This document shows positions 19,920 through 26,952 of a stretch of DNA of 64,000 nucleotides, in pieces (position 1 is the stretch's first letter; the number at the start of each line of letters is the position of its first letter). The stretch is from NCBI RefSeq assembly GCF_020164555.1, contig NZ_JAIQZB010000020.1, positions 1 through 64,000 of the forward strand. Reading direction: 5' to 3'. Both the position numbers and the translations under genes were made by a program. The notes below the pieces were generated by a model. That model was not told the DNA's origin. It worked only from the letters and a program-made list of their open reading frames with translations, and did not search any database. Source of the stretch: Salegentibacter lacus. Its GTDB lineage: Bacteria > Bacteroidota > Bacteroidia > Flavobacteriales > Flavobacteriaceae.

Positions 19920-20489
19920 TTATTCAGCTTTAATTACAATTGGCATTTTAAAAACGGTAGAGACAGGCACCCCACGCTTGCTGGCGGGATATATTTTTGG
20001 AAGGGAATCTATAGATTGGTCTAACCACATTCTTAATTCCGGAAGCTGATCGTTTAATGTAGAATCTATTTGTACCGAATCTATCTCGGGATGACCCGAG
20101 CTGTTAATTTCAAGATAAAGATAAAGCGTATCGTCTATCGATTCAGTAACTACAGGTTGTTGTTTAGAAAGATAAGCGTAAATATTTTCAGCAACTTCCC
20201 GCTCAAAACATTCGCGTGCCGCAAGGAGTTCTGTTTCGTTTTGGCAATCTTCAAAAGCAGGATATGCGTCTACTTCTTTCCAGTTAAGCGTTTTGGATTC
20301 CAGCTCCAGCACCTCTTCTGAAGAAATTTTCTTAGTCTCAAAATTACAGGAGAAAACTACTAAAACAGCAATTGCAAGTAAACTTCGCCGAAACAGAATC
20401 GGGAAGTAATTATAGAAATAACAACACTTAAATCTCGAGACTGGTTTCAGAGCATTTAAATCTCGATTATCGAGTAAAGCTTTTTTCAT
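19920..20489 (-). CDS. TonB C-terminal-like lipoprotein, 5' end altered by a repeat
   Basis: A 189-residue protein if started at the ATG at 20487-20489. A hydrophobic stretch ending FSC at about residues 33-49 looks like a lipobox, but it lies unusually far from this start. The mature part has YPAFEDC..ARECFEREVAENI and ends YPASKRGVPVSTVFKMPIVI. Both blocks parallel the C-terminus of the M56 protein encoded upstream, and fit a TonB-type C-terminal domain. Codons just after the ATG fall inside dispersed repeat family B, so the true N-terminus may have been replaced. An upstream TTG at 20516 is possible but less likely. Confidence 0.65.
   Translation of the reverse strand: MKKALLDNRDLNALKPVSRFKCCYFYNYFPILFRRSLLAIAVLVVFSCNFETKKISSEEVLELESKTLNWKEVDAYPAFEDCQNETELLAARECFEREVAENIYAYLSKQQPVVTESIDDTLYLYLEINSSGHPEIDSVQIDSTLNDQLPELRMWLDQSIDSLPKIYPASKRGVPVSTVFKMPIVIKAE
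20431..20476 (-). repeat. Dispersed repeat family B, copy 1, inside a coding region
   Basis: The plus strand reads CTCGAGAC, then TCAGAGCATTTAAATCTCG and ATTATCGAGTAAA. A related copy at 54619-54664 shares CGAGAC..GAGCATT.AATCTCGATTATCGAGTAAA. The core CTCGATTATCGAG is a 13-base near-perfect palindrome. In this copy the repeat forms the first codons of the TonB-like lipoprotein gene. Confidence 0.75.
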
Positions 20490-20557
20490 TGGCAAACGCG
20501 CTTGGACTTTGAGCAAAAGTAATGAAATTTAAAAGAAAGCTTTGTGAAAATCAACGG

Positions 20558-20956
20558 CTAATCTTTTATAGCATCCAGCTTCAGCGACTTTACTTCTTGC
20601 TGCCAGCCGGAGTTCTCAAGATTGATATTTTTATATTCCAAAAGGTATTTATTGGTCTTAGACTGTAGACCTTCAACTGCGGATATAAGCTTATGGTTTA
20701 CATCAATAATAAAACCGTGTTTCAGATTTTTATCTCCGTAAATATTAAAAATGAGTCGGTTATACTTGGTCGCAGGTTGTTTGTAGATTAAATCTTTAGT
20801 TTCTTTAGAAAGTTCGCCTATCGTCACATTTCGATCTTCCAAATAGATGTTCTTATCAGCATCTACAAATACATTTACTTGAAAAGCCTCCTGGGCAAAA
20901 CCGGAAACAGTGATAAGAAAAAGGCTTATAAAAAGTGTAATAATCTTAAATTTCAT
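20558..20956 (-). CDS. Secreted ExbD-like periplasmic domain protein
   Basis: A 132-residue protein with a signal peptide (MKFKIITLFISLFLITVSGFAQ, about 22 residues). The mature part resembles the periplasmic domain of ExbD/TolR: VNVFVDADKNIYLEDRNVTIGEL and then YNRLIFNIYGDKNLKHGFIID, with the conserved D-K-N-x-x-x-G pattern. True ExbD has an N-terminal membrane helix with an essential Asp, and this is replaced here by a cleavable signal. It therefore cannot form a proton channel by itself. It is likely part of the BlaI/M56 operon. Confidence 0.55.
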   Translation of the reverse strand: MKFKIITLFISLFLITVSGFAQEAFQVNVFVDADKNIYLEDRNVTIGELSKETKDLIYKQPATKYNRLIFNIYGDKNLKHGFIIDVNHKLISAVEGLQSKTNKYLLEYKNINLENSGWQQEVKSLKLDAIKD

Positions 20957-21007
20957 AGGTGTTAATTTAAAAGGAATTACTAAAAATCCATTCGAAGCCT
21001 TTTCCAG

Positions 21008-22156
21008 TTATTTTCCAGCTAAGTGTATTTTTTTCTTAAGGTCACTGATCCTGGTTTTTGCTCTATAGAGCATTCCATCGTTTCCAGTACTTTCGTATTT
21101 ATTAAAATAAGCCTGGTAATAACCAATTGCGGTCTCATCATCTTCCATATAATTATCTGCCGCTACGGCACGTTCGTATAAAGCTCTTTCATTTTCTGGA
21201 TTTTCCTCCAGGGCTTTATTAAAATAATCCAGCGCATCTTTATACTTTTCCTGCATTTTGTAGGTGAGTCCCAAACTCAAATATTCGGCATCTACCGGTT
21301 GCTTTTTAATAAGGATGGACATTAATAAATGAGTTTCAGATTTGTCTAAATCCCCTGTTAAGGCATATAATTTTCCAAGGGTATAATGCGTAGCCGAGTT
21401 TCGGTCTTCAAACTCAAGCGCCTTATTATACATTTTTATCGCTTTCTCATAATCTCCCATTTGATAATAAGCAAAACCAAGTTTATTGAAGATAAACTCG
21501 GTGCCCTGCCCAAGATCAATCAACTTTTTATAAGGCGGAATCGCTTCTTTATAAAGGGTTAACGAGGAATAAGTTTGGGCCAGAATAGAAAGCAGAGAGG
21601 GATTATTAGGATTTGCCCGAAGCCCGCGTTTACTATAATGCTCTGCCATGGTGTACTGCCGGTTCCTTAATTTATCTTTAGCTACTTTGTAAAGCGCTGC
21701 CTGGTGCGTGGTGTCCAGCATTACCGTGTACATAAAATAATGCTGAGCCGTACTATCCTTAAGTTTTTCTTTGACTAATCCTTGCTGATATTTAAAACTG
21801 GCGTTCTTCGGATATTTTTCACTCAAAACTTTAAAAAGGCTATCGGCTGCTTTTAGTTTTCCGGTTTTTACCAGTAAGTCGCCATAATCTATGGTGGTTA
21901 GAATACGATCTGGATTTTGGTTTAAAACCTTTTTGTAGTTCTCCAGCGCGATTTCGGATTGTCGATTCGCCGCATAGTTCTTAGCCAGCTTAAGATAAGT
22001 TTTCTCTGTTTTAGGATTTATCTCCTGGAGTTTATTTATCGCTTCGGAATATTCCCCCACAGCATACAAACTGTCTGAAATGGCCAAAGCCGAAGTTTGA
22101 GCTTCGGCTTTAAAGGCTACTAACATTAAAATAATAATGAAACTAAACTTATTCAC
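21008..22156 (-). CDS. Secreted TPR-repeat protein
   Basis: A 382-residue protein with a signal peptide (about residues 1-19, ending AEAQ) and tandem tetratricopeptide repeats from about residue 30 to 350. The repeats include YLKLAKNYAANRQSEIALENY, FNKLGFAYYQMGDYEKAI and HYTLGKLYALTGDLDKS. TPRs form protein-binding scaffolds, so it probably docks a periplasmic partner. The start is GTG at 22154-22156, and the gene overlaps the M56 gene by eight bases, which shows translational coupling. Confidence 0.9.
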   Translation of the reverse strand: MNKFSFIIILMLVAFKAEAQTSALAISDSLYAVGEYSEAINKLQEINPKTEKTYLKLAKNYAANRQSEIALENYKKVLNQNPDRILTTIDYGDLLVKTGKLKAADSLFKVLSEKYPKNASFKYQQGLVKEKLKDSTAQHYFMYTVMLDTTHQAALYKVAKDKLRNRQYTMAEHYSKRGLRANPNNPSLLSILAQTYSSLTLYKEAIPPYKKLIDLGQGTEFIFNKLGFAYYQMGDYEKAIKMYNKALEFEDRNSATHYTLGKLYALTGDLDKSETHLLMSILIKKQPVDAEYLSLGLTYKMQEKYKDALDYFNKALEENPENERALYERAVAADNYMEDDETAIGYYQAYFNKYESTGNDGMLYRAKTRISDLKKKIHLAGK

Positions 22157-23600
22157 CTATCTGAAAAACTATTGGAAGTGAATACATCACGCTAATTTCC
22201 TTTCCGTCCTGTTTCCCGGGCTGCATTTTAGGAAGTTCAGAAATAACTCTTATGGCTTCTTCTTGTAAGGCTGGATGTGAAGCTCGCGCTTTTACATCTA
22301 CAACTTCTCCGGTTTCATCTATTCTAAATTGAGCTATTACGCGATTTACACCTTTTAGGTTTAATTCTTCACCTAAACCTGTATTGAAGTTTTTGTTTAC
22401 AAATTGGGAAATCTGGCGACTCATACATTCCTTTCTCTCCTTATTAGAACTTAAGCCTTCACAACCTTCAAATACAGGAACTTCTTCAATTACTGCAAAC
22501 GGAACAGCGTTCGAATTATCTCCTGAAGCTGATGATTTTTCAAAAGGTGGTAATGGCGGTGGAGTTGGACGATTTTCATTTTGACCCATCGCATCTAGAA
22601 TTTCAAATAATTGCTGCTTTTCAGTGTCAGATAATTTCTTACCATCATCAATGGCCATTTTAATTTCTGCTAATTGTTCAGAAATTGACTGATTATCGTC
22701 TATTCCTTCTTTATCTTCAGAACACGACACATAGGTGAGCATCATAAAGAGTAACGGAAGTACAAATAGGTACTTGAATTTTGCGATTGTTTTTGATCTT
22801 GATTTTTGTAACATAATAATTCGTTTTTTGATTAATGAATGATTAAAAAATTGATTGATGAATGAAATATTCTGCGTGTTAAACGCGGTGTTAAGCAACT
22901 GTTCGTAATAGCTGCGTTTAGTGGTGGTTTTTACCACATTTGCATCGGCGATGAACTCGTGCAAAGCGGCAATCCTACTCTGATAGATATATACCAAAGG
23001 ATTAAACCAAAATATGATCTTTAAAGCTTCAAAAAACACCAAATCCAGGCTGTGTTTTTGCCTAACATGAACTAATTCGTGCGATAAAATTTGTTGCTTT
23101 TCAGCTTCAGATAATTTATCGCCCAAAAACACGGTTTTAAAAAAAGTACAGGCAATATTTGAATTCGGAACTTCAATAATTCTCAGCTCTTTATTTTCTG
23201 AAATTCTTCGGAAACAAAATAAATTGTTCAGGTTTTGGTATTTCTTGAGCAATAAAATTAAACTAAGTACCACTCCTGAAATATAGGTAACTAACCACCA
23301 GTTTATTTGTAAACCTTGCTCTTGTGCTATATTCACGGCAGGCAACTGATGAACATTTTCAGGCTCACCGCCAATATAAACTTCCGGAAGCCAAACCTGC
23401 GAAAGCGCCGAGATGGATTCTGCCGGCACCAATGTCGATAAACTTTCAATTTTCAATAAAGGAAGTAAAAGCGAAACAAGCGGTGTTACTAATAAATACA
23501 ACCTGTTTATATTGAAAAACGTCTCTTTTTTTAGCAGCAGTTCATACATCAGCAAAAAACCGAGTTGGAACAATACCACCTGAATTATATACTGTAACAT
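22149..23600 (-). CDS. M56-family (BlaR1-like) metallopeptidase with TonB-type C-terminus
   Basis: A 483-residue membrane protein. Helices at the N-terminus are followed by the M56 zinc peptidase domain with HELVH (about residues 171-175) and the downstream acidic region LHEFIADANV. A further membrane helix (FKYLFVLPLLFMMLTYVSC) leads to a periplasmic region with VPVFEGCEG..KECMSRQIS and a TonB-like end (AQFRIDETGEVVDVKARA, MYSLPIVFQIGE). BlaR1/MecR1 proteins sense a signal and cleave the BlaI/MecI repressor. Here the usual penicillin-binding sensor is replaced by the TonB-type domain, so the signal is unknown and not necessarily beta-lactam. Overlaps blaI by one base. Confidence 0.9.
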   Translation of the reverse strand: MLQYIIQVVLFQLGFLLMYELLLKKETFFNINRLYLLVTPLVSLLLPLLKIESLSTLVPAESISALSQVWLPEVYIGGEPENVHQLPAVNIAQEQGLQINWWLVTYISGVVLSLILLLKKYQNLNNLFCFRRISENKELRIIEVPNSNIACTFFKTVFLGDKLSEAEKQQILSHELVHVRQKHSLDLVFFEALKIIFWFNPLVYIYQSRIAALHEFIADANVVKTTTKRSYYEQLLNTAFNTQNISFINQFFNHSLIKKRIIMLQKSRSKTIAKFKYLFVLPLLFMMLTYVSCSEDKEGIDDNQSISEQLAEIKMAIDDGKKLSDTEKQQLFEILDAMGQNENRPTPPPLPPFEKSSASGDNSNAVPFAVIEEVPVFEGCEGLSSNKERKECMSRQISQFVNKNFNTGLGEELNLKGVNRVIAQFRIDETGEVVDVKARASHPALQEEAIRVISELPKMQPGKQDGKEISVMYSLPIVFQIGE

Positions 23601-23962
23601 TATTGCTCTTTTTTATTGATCTCCTTTAAAATCGCTTCCAGGTCTTTGGTGTCCATATCGTTCTTTTTCATAAAAAAGGAAACCATACTTTTAAAGGAGC
23701 CGTTAAAATAATTATTCATCAATTTATTGATGCTTTGATTGCTATAAGTCTCACGAGCCAAAAGCGGAAAATATAAATAACCTTTCCCTTTCTTTTCGTG
23801 ATCTACAAAACCTTTATCTTCCAGGATTCTTACAATGGTAGAAACCGTGTTGTATGCGGGTTTAGGCTCTGGCATTTCCTCGATAATTGAAGCGACATTG
23901 GCTTTCTCCAGTTTCCAGAGAATTTGCATAATCTCTTCTTCGGCTTTGGTTAGTTGTTTCAT
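23600..23962 (-). CDS. BlaI/MecI/CopY-family repressor
   Basis: A 120-residue winged-helix repressor. The start KQLTKAEEEIMQILWKLEKA and the recognition region PAYNTVSTIVRILEDKGFV (about residues 33-52) are family hallmarks. The C-terminal helices drive dimerisation. Such repressors are cleaved by the M56 peptidase in the same operon, which lifts repression. It is the first gene of the operon, overlapping the M56 gene by one base (TAATG). Palindromic candidate operators lie upstream at about 24152-24190. Confidence 0.95.
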   Translation of the reverse strand: MKQLTKAEEEIMQILWKLEKANVASIIEEMPEPKPAYNTVSTIVRILEDKGFVDHEKKGKGYLYFPLLARETYSNQSINKLMNNYFNGSFKSMVSFFMKKNDMDTKDLEAILKEINKKEQ

Positions 23963-23972
23963 AAGTTCCTTT

Positions 23973-23998
23973 TGTCATTTCCCGAAGGCGGAAATCTA
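23973..23998 (+). repeat. Dispersed repeat family C, copy 2
   Basis: TGTCATTTCCCGAAGGCGGAAATCTA without interruption would exceed the family core; it matches the copy at 13944-13970 apart from the loop and one indel. The hairpin core is TTTCC..GGAAA. It starts about ten bases upstream of the blaI start codon. Confidence 0.65.
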
Positions 23999-24074
23999 TT
24001 TTAATTTTTCTACACCGGACTGAATTTTCAGACTTTATCCCGAATTGACTTCGGGATTCTAAATTGAATTGAAA

Positions 24075-24124
24075 TTAGATCCTGACTTCTCGACTCCGCT
24101 CGGAGTGACGAATTCTGGATGACG
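24075..24124 (+). repeat. Dispersed repeat family A, copy 3
   Basis: Starts TTAGATCCTGACTTCTCGAC and ends CTGGATGACG, matching 11733-11783 and the inverse of 15803-15852 with only a few changes. It separates blaI from the palindromic candidate operators. Confidence 0.85.
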
Positions 24125-24151
24125 TTTAATTCAATTTAATAATGCTAATAT

Positions 24152-24191
24152 AAACTAACATTTTAGTTTAACCTAATTATTTAGTTAAAAA
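24152..24191. promoter_or_regulatory. Palindromes that could be BlaI-family operators
   Basis: AAACTAA, CATT, TTAGTTT forms an 18-base perfect inverted repeat at 24152-24169. Overlapping it, TTTAAC (24167-24172) and a later GTTAAA form a second inverted repeat enclosing TTAGT again. BlaI-type repressors bind short dyads at their own promoter, but the motif used in flavobacteria is not known to me. The site lies about 190 bases from blaI and about 105 from the ATPase gene, so it could serve either. Confidence 0.35.
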
Positions 24192-24273: not shown

Positions 24274-26952
24274 ATGATTTCAGAAAAAGAACTTTCAGAT
24301 CTACGCAAAAAAGCTTATCAACTCTCTTCCGAAGAGGTTATCGAAAAACTACAAACCGATGCCAATAATGGTTTAGATGAAAATAATATTAAGGATCGCC
24401 AGGAGAAATTCGGAAAAAACCAGCTCGAAGAAAAATCGGGAAAAAGTATTCTGAGTATTATTCTTAGCCAGTTAAATAATCCTGTAATATATCTCCTTAC
24501 TGCCGCTGCGGTAATCGCATTTCTTTTTGGCGATGTTCCCGAAGCCATAGTAATTCTTGTTGTTCTTATTGTAAATACCATTATCGGTTTCTGGATGGAG
24601 TTCCAGGCACAGAAGTCTATGGAAGCCATTAAAAAAATGGATAAAACCGAAATAACGGTGATTAGAGACGGGAAAGAAACTGAACTTGATGCCGAAGAAA
24701 TTGTGCCCGGAGATGTTCTAAAAATAGATGCAGGCGACTTAATTCCGGCAGATGCCCGTTTACTTGAAGCTAACGAACTTCGAATTGACGAAGCGGCCTT
24801 AACAGGAGAATCTGTACCGGTTAACAAATCTTCTGAAGCCATTGAAGATGAAAAACAAGTGGCCGATCGTAACAATACCATTTACAAAGGAACTGCCGTT
24901 ACTGCCGGAACCGGGAAAGCTGTGGTTTTTGCCACGGCTATGCACACCGAGGTAGGAAATATCTCGGCTATGGTCCAGGAACAGGACAAAGACGAAACGC
25001 CCTTAACTACCAAACTTAACCAGCTTACCAAAAATCTAATATGGGTCATTCTTGCTATGGCAGCGGCATTTTTCTTATTTGGCTGGTTAACCGATAAAGA
25101 CCTTTATCAACTGATCCAGACCTCAATTGCCTGGGCCATTGCCGCAATCCCGGAAGGTTTACCCATTGTTGCCAGTATTGCCCTTGCCCGCGGGATGTAT
25201 AGATTGTCTAAGCAAAATGTACTGGTTAAAAAATTAAGCGCCGTAGAAACCCTTGGAGAAACTACCGTAATATTTACCGATAAAACCGGAACGCTAACTA
25301 AAAATAAACTTACTGTCAAAAATTTCTCTTTGCCGAAAAAAGAGGACCTAAAAGTTAATTGGAAAGATGAAAAACCCGAAGTTGAAAATAAGGAGAACTC
25401 TAATTTTCAGGAAATATTTAAAATATCAGTTCTTGCAAACGATGCAAATTTGGAAGACGATGGGACAGAAAATGGTGATCCCTTAGAAATTGCCCTATTA
25501 AAGTTCACTAAGAATTTAGATGAAGAATTCTATACCGAAAACAAGAAAAAAGAGCGTATTCTTCATAAACCTTTTGACTCTGACACCATGACAATGGGTG
25601 TGGCTTCTAAAAGTGAAAATGCCAAAATATACATTGCTGCCAAGGGATCTACGAGTGCAATTTTAGATAGAAGTACGCATATTTTGGAAAATGATGAAGA
25701 AACAGAACTCAATAAAGAACAAAAAGAAAAATGGCAGCAGAAAAATAATGAGCTTTCTGAAGATGGATTACGGGTTTTAGCCTTTGGCTACAGAAAAACA
25801 GAAAAGAAACCTGAAGATGAAGACAATTTTATAGAGAAACTATGCTTTGTTGGATTAATAGGATTTATAGATCCGCCGCGGGAAGAAATTGCTTCATCTA
25901 TAGAAACCTGTAAAAAAGCAGGGATTAAAGTATTAATGGTTACAGGAGATCATCCCGGCACAGCTAAAAACGTAGGGAAAACGGTTCACCTTTTTTCCGA
26001 AGATGAAGAAAATAACGATGTGGCTGTGCACGGTAAAGACTTAAATGATAAGGATATTCCATACGAAGAAATAAAGGATTCTTATGTTTTCTCCCGTGTT
26101 GCTCCGGGGCAAAAATTAAAGCTTATTGAAACTTACAAAAATAATGGTGAAATAGTAGCTATGACCGGGGATGGAGTGAATGATGCTCCCGCATTGAAGA
26201 AAGCTGATATTGGTATTGCGATGGGAAAAAGGGGAACCCAGGTGGCCCAGGAAGTAGCCGATGTGGTATTAAAAGATGATTCTTTTGATTCTATAATAAA
26301 TGCAGTTGCACAAGGACGAATTATATTTGGCAATATTAGGCGTTTTGTAGTCTATCAACTTTCTTATCACCTTAGTGAGATTCTTATCATTGCGATAATG
26401 AGTTTCAGTTTATTTACCTTGCCTATTTTACCGCTTCAGCTGCTTTTTTTAAATCTTTTATCTGATGTTTTTCCTGCACTCGCACTAGGAGTTGGCGAAG
26501 GTGACAAAAAAGTACTTGAGCATCCGCCAAAAGATCCTAAGGAACCAGTACTTAAAAAGCAGAACTGGCGACAGATTATTTCTTATGGTTTAATAATAAC
26601 TGCAAGTGTAAGTGGCGCTTACCTCTACTCTCATTTTATATTACAGCAATCTGAAAGTATCAATAATAACATCGCATTTTTTAGTCTTGCTTTCGCTCAA
26701 TTTCTTCACGTTTTTAATTTGCGTGATGGGGATGAGAATATGTTTAACAACCAGGTTACCAGAAATAAATTTATCTGGATGGCATTACTGCTATGTATTA
26801 GCTTAGTTTTAATTGCCTATTTTGTGCCGGTATTTGCTGATGTTTTGTCTTTTGAAAAACTCAGTTTACAGAGTTGGATTCTTATAGGTATTAGTAGTAT
26901 TGCGCCGCTAATAATTATTCAGTTCATTAAAGAAATCAAAAAAGATTTTTAA
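24274..26952 (+). CDS. P2-type cation-transporting ATPase (1)
   Basis: An 892-residue integral membrane pump of the SERCA/PMCA-like P2 class. Motifs are TGES in the actuator domain, phosphorylation site DKTGTLT with Asp336, and MTGDGVNDAPALKKADIGIAMG in the hinge. M4 has the ion-binding PEGLP. In M5 the usual Asn of the SERCA site II is His (YHLSE), and M6 reads NLLSD. The cation is therefore uncertain: Ca2+ is the family default, but the altered M5 may change selectivity. It is followed after 15 bases by a DUF456 gene. A second P2 ATPase lies in the opposite-strand operon nearby. Confidence 0.92.
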   Translation: MISEKELSDLRKKAYQLSSEEVIEKLQTDANNGLDENNIKDRQEKFGKNQLEEKSGKSILSIILSQLNNPVIYLLTAAAVIAFLFGDVPEAIVILVVLIVNTIIGFWMEFQAQKSMEAIKKMDKTEITVIRDGKETELDAEEIVPGDVLKIDAGDLIPADARLLEANELRIDEAALTGESVPVNKSSEAIEDEKQVADRNNTIYKGTAVTAGTGKAVVFATAMHTEVGNISAMVQEQDKDETPLTTKLNQLTKNLIWVILAMAAAFFLFGWLTDKDLYQLIQTSIAWAIAAIPEGLPIVASIALARGMYRLSKQNVLVKKLSAVETLGETTVIFTDKTGTLTKNKLTVKNFSLPKKEDLKVNWKDEKPEVENKENSNFQEIFKISVLANDANLEDDGTENGDPLEIALLKFTKNLDEEFYTENKKKERILHKPFDSDTMTMGVASKSENAKIYIAAKGSTSAILDRSTHILENDEETELNKEQKEKWQQKNNELSEDGLRVLAFGYRKTEKKPEDEDNFIEKLCFVGLIGFIDPPREEIASSIETCKKAGIKVLMVTGDHPGTAKNVGKTVHLFSEDEENNDVAVHGKDLNDKDIPYEEIKDSYVFSRVAPGQKLKLIETYKNNGEIVAMTGDGVNDAPALKKADIGIAMGKRGTQVAQEVADVVLKDDSFDSIINAVAQGRIIFGNIRRFVVYQLSYHLSEILIIAIMSFSLFTLPILPLQLLFLNLLSDVFPALALGVGEGDKKVLEHPPKDPKEPVLKKQNWRQIISYGLIITASVSGAYLYSHFILQQSESINNNIAFFSLAFAQFLHVFNLRDGDENMFNNQVTRNKFIWMALLLCISLVLIAYFVPVFADVLSFEKLSLQSWILIGISSIAPLIIIQFIKEIKKDF

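Follow-up and report, generated by a model that had tools for sequence, protein, structure and literature searches.

A BlaI/BlaR1-type gene set with a TonB-domain M56 protein and a double-palindrome operator in Flavobacteriaceae: a candidate proteolytic envelope switch

Introduction

What does a BlaR1-type membrane protease respond to when it carries a TonB C-terminal domain (TonB-CTD) in place of a penicillin-binding sensor domain? The question is raised by an operon in the window analyzed here, a stretch of 64,000 nucleotides from the 4.05 Mb genome of Salegentibacter lacus (contig NZ_JAIQZB010000020.1). Five open reading frames (ORFs), all on the minus strand and running from 23962 to 19920, encode a BlaI-type repressor, an M56-family zinc protease, a secreted tetratricopeptide-repeat (TPR) protein, an ExbD-like protein, and a lipoprotein that we call LipoT. 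We consider it fairly probable (roughly 60%) that they form a self-regulated proteolytic switch of the BlaI/BlaR1 type with a TonB-CTD as sensor, which would release its own operon and a few other envelope proteins.

BlaR1/BlaI is the textbook case of signal-driven repressor cleavage, known for β-lactams. BlaI–M56 pairs are common, and M56–TonB fusions may be catalogued in databases. BlaR1 is reviewed in PMC7593790, and for Zobellia BlaI is only listed among the induced regulators (PMC5613140). The literature titles and abstract openings listed held no description of an M56–TonB switch, its operator, or its regulon; within that scope, the original prediction of an undescribed system stands.

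Results

The repressor and the M56–TonB sensor

The gene set described for the window was confirmed. Its first gene (23600..23962) encodes a BlaI/MecI-family repressor of 120 residues, a member of PF03965 (116 bits; Pfam cut-off 22.6), whose C-terminal motif YF.GSfksMvSFF is conserved in 141 distinct sequences, including that of the window. This gene shares one base (23600) with the M56 gene (22149..23600), and the latter shares eight bases (22149–22156) with the TPR gene, the two overlaps that the original prediction had reported.

The M56 protein (483 residues) combines a BlaR1-type membrane zinc protease (PF05569; 70 bits, cut-off 31), a periplasmic proline-rich linker, and at residues 420–480 a TonB C-terminal domain (PF03544, TonB_C; 39.5 bits, cut-off 24.6). 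The HExxH motif (H174, E175, H178), the distal E215, and, within the TonB part, the cysteines C380 and C392 did not vary across an alignment of 53 rows. The AlphaFold model (mean predicted local distance difference test, pLDDT, 79.6; predicted template modelling score, pTM, 0.58) matched the BlaR1 structures 8exq–8ext (S. aureus BlaR1 8exq, E 3.9e-6) and, more weakly, TonB-CTDs, as in 6i97_D, the TonB part of a FoxA–TonB complex (E 4.5e-3).

A penicillin-binding or β-lactamase domain was searched for with Pfam and was not found at E ≤ 1 on the window M56 protein; none was found on four other operon M56 proteins scanned. The NCBIfam BlaR1 model NF000326 gave 34 bits against a cut-off of 400. 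The replacement of a β-lactam sensor by a TonB-type domain had thus been read correctly, and we class the system as of the BlaR1/BlaI kind and not as a BlaR1 β-lactam sensor, because the test for such a sensor was negative.

The same genome has a second BlaI–M56 pair (contig C107, L154:3285-5402; G, C, and L numbers denote genomes, contigs, and loci), whose sensor carries two stretches of the TonB-receptor Plug domain (PF07715), the opposite partner in the TonB contact. As far as domain assignments can tell, a single genome thus employs both halves of that contact in M56 sensors.

The TPR, ExbD-like, and LipoT proteins

The secreted TPR protein (21008..22156; 382 residues, GTG start) contains repeats with strong Pfam support, above the cut-off. 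The next gene (20558..20956; 132 residues) encodes a secreted periplasmic domain like that of ExbD/TolR, which scored 19.5 bits against PF02472, below the cut-off of 25.4 (E 0.0011); eight of nine homologues scanned matched that family at E ≤ 0.1 (best 9.5e-5). ExbD proteins retain a membrane helix with an Asp. Here that helix is missing, the N-terminus reads by eye as a signal peptide, and the protein does not qualify as an ExbD/TolR member.

LipoT (19920..20489 from the ATG at 20489; the ORF opens at a TTG at 20516) has a lipobox Cys that is invariant in 65 rows, as are C51 and C63. The window protein had no Pfam match and stayed below the PF03544 cut-off, and only five of 65 family members matched TonB_C at E ≤ 0.1 (best 1.2e-4). 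The family profile nevertheless aligned with the M56 TonB domain at 98.9% in hhalign (E 1.6e-17). The LipoT model (mean pLDDT 89.8) had the CTDs of TonB and TolA as nearest folds (Foldseek best E 9.9e-3), and the top eight VIA-align rows were all TonB or TolA. Against TonB bound to FoxA (6i97_D), VIA-align gave a Z of 7.2, with a root-mean-square deviation of 2.8 and 89 aligned residues; this Z is middling, and values below 8 can reflect a common arrangement. Together, profile and model indicate that LipoT and the M56 C-terminus share the TonB-CTD fold, which bears out the parallel between the two C-termini noted at the outset. The signal peptide of LipoT (window 20397–20489) is lengthened in frame by about 30 residues, an insertion present also in eight congeners and missing in six.

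Conservation of the gene set

We collected 36 loci from 35 genomes around M56 or LipoT matches. BlaI–M56 was present at 28 of them: 22 held both TPR and LipoT, four LipoT without TPR, one TPR without LipoT, and one neither. One of the 28 (L108, G037) belongs to another family within the same taxonomic order. A second set was seeded with M56 proteins; from the best 80 of 155 matches, 78 loci were retained, and eight with short flanks were dropped, leaving 70 named loci. Among those best 80 of 155 matches, the closest named relatives by M56 protein were Salegentibacter species. BlaI was found at 68 of the 70, LipoT at 61 (within 6 kb downstream of M56), TPR at 58 (downstream of M56), and all four genes at 48. 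The joining of BlaI–M56 to TPR and lipoprotein partners is conserved and exceeds what chance would give.

The predicted five-gene order held in part: BlaI–M56(–TPR)–LipoT is widely kept, and the ExbD-like gene is variable. The latter matched in 10 of 60 genomes including that of the window, nine of them Salegentibacter; within the 15 Salegentibacter genomes those nine include a 40-residue remnant and a copy with an in-frame stop. Outside Salegentibacter it lies between TPR and LipoT at two of four Christiangramia loci examined, so that the five genes recur there with an extra one. The ExbD-like gene is thus accessory and is not confined to one genus. All four Christiangramia loci (L318, L324, L345, L351) have a further small TonB_C gene (157–163 residues) between M56 and TPR.

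Two other insertions were seen before LipoT. Three congeners (L073, L074, L079) have a gene of 686 residues there, sorted by the type IX secretion system according to Pfam in the one scanned, and at L081 (G009) the operon holds a gene of 412 residues that looks, by eye, like a transposase of the IS256 type.

The operator and its promoter

Two palindromes, AACTAAnnnnTTAGTT-nn-AACTAAnnnnTTAGTT, two bases apart, overlie the blaI promoter. In the window, on the minus strand, the proximal copy is exact (AACTAAnnnnTTAGTT, 24153..24168) and the second has one mismatch (AACTAAnnnnTTAGGT, 24171..24186). A −7-like box, TATATTAG (24145..24152), follows the operator immediately downstream, and the TTAG arm of the second palindrome falls at the position expected for a −33 box. 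Spaced TT[AT]G and TAnnTT[TA]G boxes are the promoter layout of Bacteroidetes. The consensus of 57 oriented operators was AACTAAAaaaTTAGTTtaAACTAAat.tTTAGTTATATTtg; TAnnTT[TA]G followed the operator in 54 of these copies, and TT[AT]G stood 18–21 nt ahead of it in 52. One palindrome occupies the space between the promoter boxes, and the other covers the −33 box with one of its arms; therefore, a bound repressor would block the promoter. To judge from this layout, a palindromic operator covers the shared promoter, as in BlaR1–BlaI.

The exact palindrome preceded the blaI operon in 22 of 22 chosen genomes and at all 28 BlaI–M56 loci. The 22 genomes held 41 exact sites, 32 before the blaI operon and nine elsewhere; these nine compare with 29 in the reversed control. 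Of the 299 family genomes, 179 (from 129 of 203 genera) carried the double operator with at most one mismatch, and the reversed control gave none. A sample of 392 phylum genomes yielded 17, all from the family of the window; two exact double operators are present at L108, which comes from a sister family and was not among the matches in that sample. With up to three mismatches, the double operator occurred at 59 of the 70 named loci. Single palindromes with at most one mismatch numbered 20 in the genome of the window and 40 for the reversed controls; therefore, only exact or double sites were trusted.

Six genomes of the 299 (G016, G018, G019, G022, G033, G034) have a LipoT locus (L101–L106) without BlaI–M56. 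As a control by absence, none of the six had a double operator; other M56 genes may be present elsewhere in these genomes. On the evidence of the nucleotide sequences, what is new here is the double-palindrome operator, the promoter layout, and the operator-linked genes elsewhere in the genome.

Several features adjoin the operator. The leader between promoter and blaI (window 23970–24140) contains palindromic repeat units of the GTCATCCTGA type, which by eye vary between congeners. In three of the 15 Salegentibacter genomes (that of the window, G006, and G008), a gene reading as a cation P-type ATPase (window 24274–26952) separates the operon from DUF456, which is usually its divergent neighbor. 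This gene has the blaI operator 88 bases ahead of it, and the operator might act on both. L257 (G172) has two BlaI–M56–TonB pairs in facing orientation, with a double operator for each and a gene of 415 residues between them.

An Rfam scan of the window found two tRNAs and no match at the operon. The consensus scan was of little use: promoter-like sites numbered 19 (15.9 in shuffled sequence) and terminator-like sites six (3.7). PADLOC matches were read as shared general domains, and a defence system was rejected: BlaI matched helix-turn-helix CRISPR regulators (best 1.1e-5), the TPR protein PrimPol and PDC-M71B models (best 5.1e-8), and M56 capH (4.8e-3).

Genes marked by the operator

We opened 61 sites: 58 of 75 double-operator sites listed for the family, which has at least that many, and three picked from the phylum sample. 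Family sites were taken in listing order and not by their genes, with G031, G026, G247, and G303 left out; as a palindrome may serve either side, each site was assigned to the nearest labelled gene. The BlaI/M56 set followed at 56 sites, and the remaining five adjoin other envelope genes. In the stretch read, 31 of the 56 operator-led operons had TPR and LipoT, 17 LipoT only, three TPR only, and five neither.

Of the five other sites, one lies next to a TPR gene alone (L266), one next to the gene of a 173-residue FAQCGK lipoprotein (L215), and three next to that of a ChaN/Tiki-like lipoprotein (L232, L247, L269), which at L269 is the second gene and is read in two ORFs. The TPR gene at L266 (G212) thus has its own double operator, and so has that of G037 (L108), where the operator is 38 nt before the ORF. 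FAQCGK family members also occur within or heading the operon in L085, L231, and L250, and three of four members are lipoproteins. A TonB fold for the FAQCGK protein was considered and is at most possible (hhalign only 31% to LipoT, 0.6% to the M56 domain). At L092 and L236 the first gene after the operator encodes an α/β hydrolase of 499–502 residues.

Six exact single sites (G001 C42, G002 C17, G002 C22, G021 C5, G023 C24, G031 C6) were not counted as regulon because they are single or common to near relatives and within the chance rate; gene names at these sites were assigned by eye, except PF00144 in G021. There, a serine hydrolase gene of the PF00144 β-lactamase family (L152:1171-2523) has the exact single operator starting 36 nt before it, and a TATATTTG box lies close upstream as well. 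A close congener of this gene was not found in 12 genomes, and this single occurrence of the operator may be chance.

The unlinked ChaN/Tiki-like lipoprotein

Elsewhere in the window's genome (C52:112900-114531), a gene for a 544-residue lipoprotein is preceded by the exact operator, which begins 46 nt ahead of the ORF. Its orthologues in G009 and G014 are also operator-led, and these three were the only genomes of the 60 relatives with near-full-length copies above 60% identity; G028 has a partly aligned copy at 33%. The copy of the window's genome reached PF04187 (29.6; cut-off 27.7), four other members scanned fell below the cut-off, and the NE.H and G..H motifs are retained. No sequence match to solved structures was found at E ≤ 1. 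The ChaN/Tiki superfamily is varied and includes haem binding, peptide cleavage, and antibiotic hydrolysis.

With a profile built from three operator-led Salegentibacter proteins and two members found through the operator (five in all), the family was located in 25 of the 299 genomes. The 30 loci included 23 with an NE.H ORF; seven without a motif ORF were left uncounted. The exact operator stood 14–62 nt upstream of seven of the 23 ORFs (G000, G268, G184, G293, G124, G284, G254), of which the first three were in the profile and the other four are new. With G231, G009, and G014, the operator-associated lipoprotein occurs in 10 genomes of seven genera, including that of the window. At L387 of G009, the gene adjoins the same 412-residue transposase-like gene that was seen in the operon of that genome.

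Discussion

A proposed mechanism

The promoter layout suggests that BlaI dimers on the two adjacent palindromes fill the −33/−7 promoter and repress blaI-m56-tpr-(exbD)-lipoT. According to sequence, model, and BlaR1 precedent, the M56 protein would sit in the inner membrane with its zinc protease in the cytoplasm and its proline-rich arm and TonB domain in the periplasm. The TonB domain would gain or lose an outer-membrane partner, either a TonB-dependent receptor or LipoT helped by the TPR protein. This change of partner would turn on the protease, which, by the precedent of its family, would cleave BlaI. Loss of BlaI would then free the operon and, where it is present behind an operator, the unlinked ChaN/Tiki-like lipoprotein gene. 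That BlaI binds the palindromes and that M56 cleaves BlaI we infer by analogy, and what the TonB domain senses is a guess.

Five observations weigh against this proposal. Among the 48 operator-led operons with LipoT, 17 have no TPR gene next to them (in one of these genomes TPR lies elsewhere). LipoT stands without BlaI–M56 at eight of 36 loci, with RuvC nearby in six of the eight, and therefore should have a role apart from the switch; one of these eight genomes (G024) has BlaI–M56 on another contig (L099). Eleven of the 70 named loci show no double operator even at three mismatches. No operator lies directly upstream of 16 of the 23 ChaN/Tiki-like ORFs, including a second copy in the window's genome; one of the 16 (G231) is the second gene behind an operator. 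Finally, secreted domains resembling TonB are also found outside the switch, and therefore a TonB domain need not mean contact with the Ton system.

What the TonB arm could sense

It is a tentative proposal that the arm itself is the sensor, with one to four TonB domains feeling receptors or a TonB-fold lipoprotein and a change of grip destroying the repressor, so that the operon itself and envelope hydrolases would be released. Two versions can be distinguished; each seems to us possible at rather long odds, and the remainder of the probability goes to other signals.

The M56 TonB domain might bind the TonB box of a receptor and report substrate load or lack, a sensor of Ton state or receptor occupancy that we regard as conceivable and somewhat doubtful. 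It is consistent with this that the TonB part of M56 shares 67% identity, across 116 residues, with a stand-alone TonB encoded in the same genome (54% with a second TonB), that the best TonB match of the M56 model is the TonB part of the FoxA–TonB complex, that three M56 homologues bear three, three, and four TonB_C domains in tandem, and that the other M56 protein of the genome carries Plug domains. However, no TonB-dependent receptor was among the operator-led genes identified, and the ExbD-like gene is not generally kept.

The second version, a tether, supposes that the M56 TonB domain pairs with LipoT across the periplasm as a gauge of outer-membrane integrity and that loss of contact activates the protease. 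We hold it with equal reserve, and the same applies to its supposed trigger, which might be envelope damage or lipoprotein mislocalization. The common fold and paired cysteines of the two domains argue for such a pairing, as does the place of LipoT close downstream of M56 at most named loci. Against it stand the loci with LipoT and no M56, and the absence of LipoT from the stretch read in eight of the 56 operator-led operons (two of the eight lie at contig ends).

It is very unlikely that this is an ordinary β-lactam-responsive BlaR1/BlaI system with an altered sensor. BlaI and M56 do belong to those families, and G021 has the operator before a PF00144 gene. However, that site is unique, and exact single sites outside blaI promoters were fewer than in the reversed control (9 vs. 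29); the M56 proteins scanned lack a penicillin-binding or β-lactamase domain, and no β-lactamase is among the genes of the window operon, most unlabelled genes in relatives' operons being unscanned. That only blaI–M56 is a unit and the other genes are chance neighbors is hardly credible: the TPR and ExbD-like genes do vary in presence, and LipoT does keep its place near RuvC at most loci without blaI–M56, but TPR has its own double operator in two genomes, the operator is common to three kinds of envelope gene elsewhere, and M56 and TPR overlap by eight bases at the start.

The self-regulated switch is thus the reading that we prefer. It would mean that many genera of a single family, the Flavobacteriaceae, which are prominent in the sea, carry the BlaR1/BlaI chassis with a putative outer-membrane-contact sensor and a DNA address of its own. 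The address makes part of the regulon readable from sequence alone and offers the ChaN/Tiki-like lipoproteins and the α/β hydrolases as candidate output genes. If the TonB arm is the sensor, this would be a proteolytic route of Ton-contact signaling, distinct from FecR-type anti-sigma signaling.

Comparison with known systems

The unlinked lipoprotein resembles ChaN/Tiki proteins (PF04187) in its motifs and in the score of the copy from the window's genome, and differs in that the other members scanned fall below the cut-off. The second M56 protein of the genome (C107) is likewise paired with a BlaI; it differs in its Plug domains and in the lack of an exact operator in the 140 bases before its blaI.

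With TonB proteins (PF03544), the M56 protein shares a membrane anchor, a proline-rich arm, and the TonB domain. Here, in contrast, the anchor is a whole M56 protease, and the only ExbD-like gene beside it encodes no membrane helix (ExbB was not searched for).

The closest parallel is with the staphylococcal BlaR1–BlaI and MecR1–MecI systems, which likewise have a BlaI repressor, an HExxH M56 protease, adjoining genes, and an operator at the promoter. BlaI operators have a TACA/TGTA core, whereas the core here is AACTAA-N4-TTAGTT; the sensor is a TonB C-terminal domain here and a penicillin-binding domain there, and the window operon is without a β-lactamase. The system would thus work like BlaR1–BlaI–BlaZ, with a sensor of outer-membrane contact and an envelope lipoprotein as its output.

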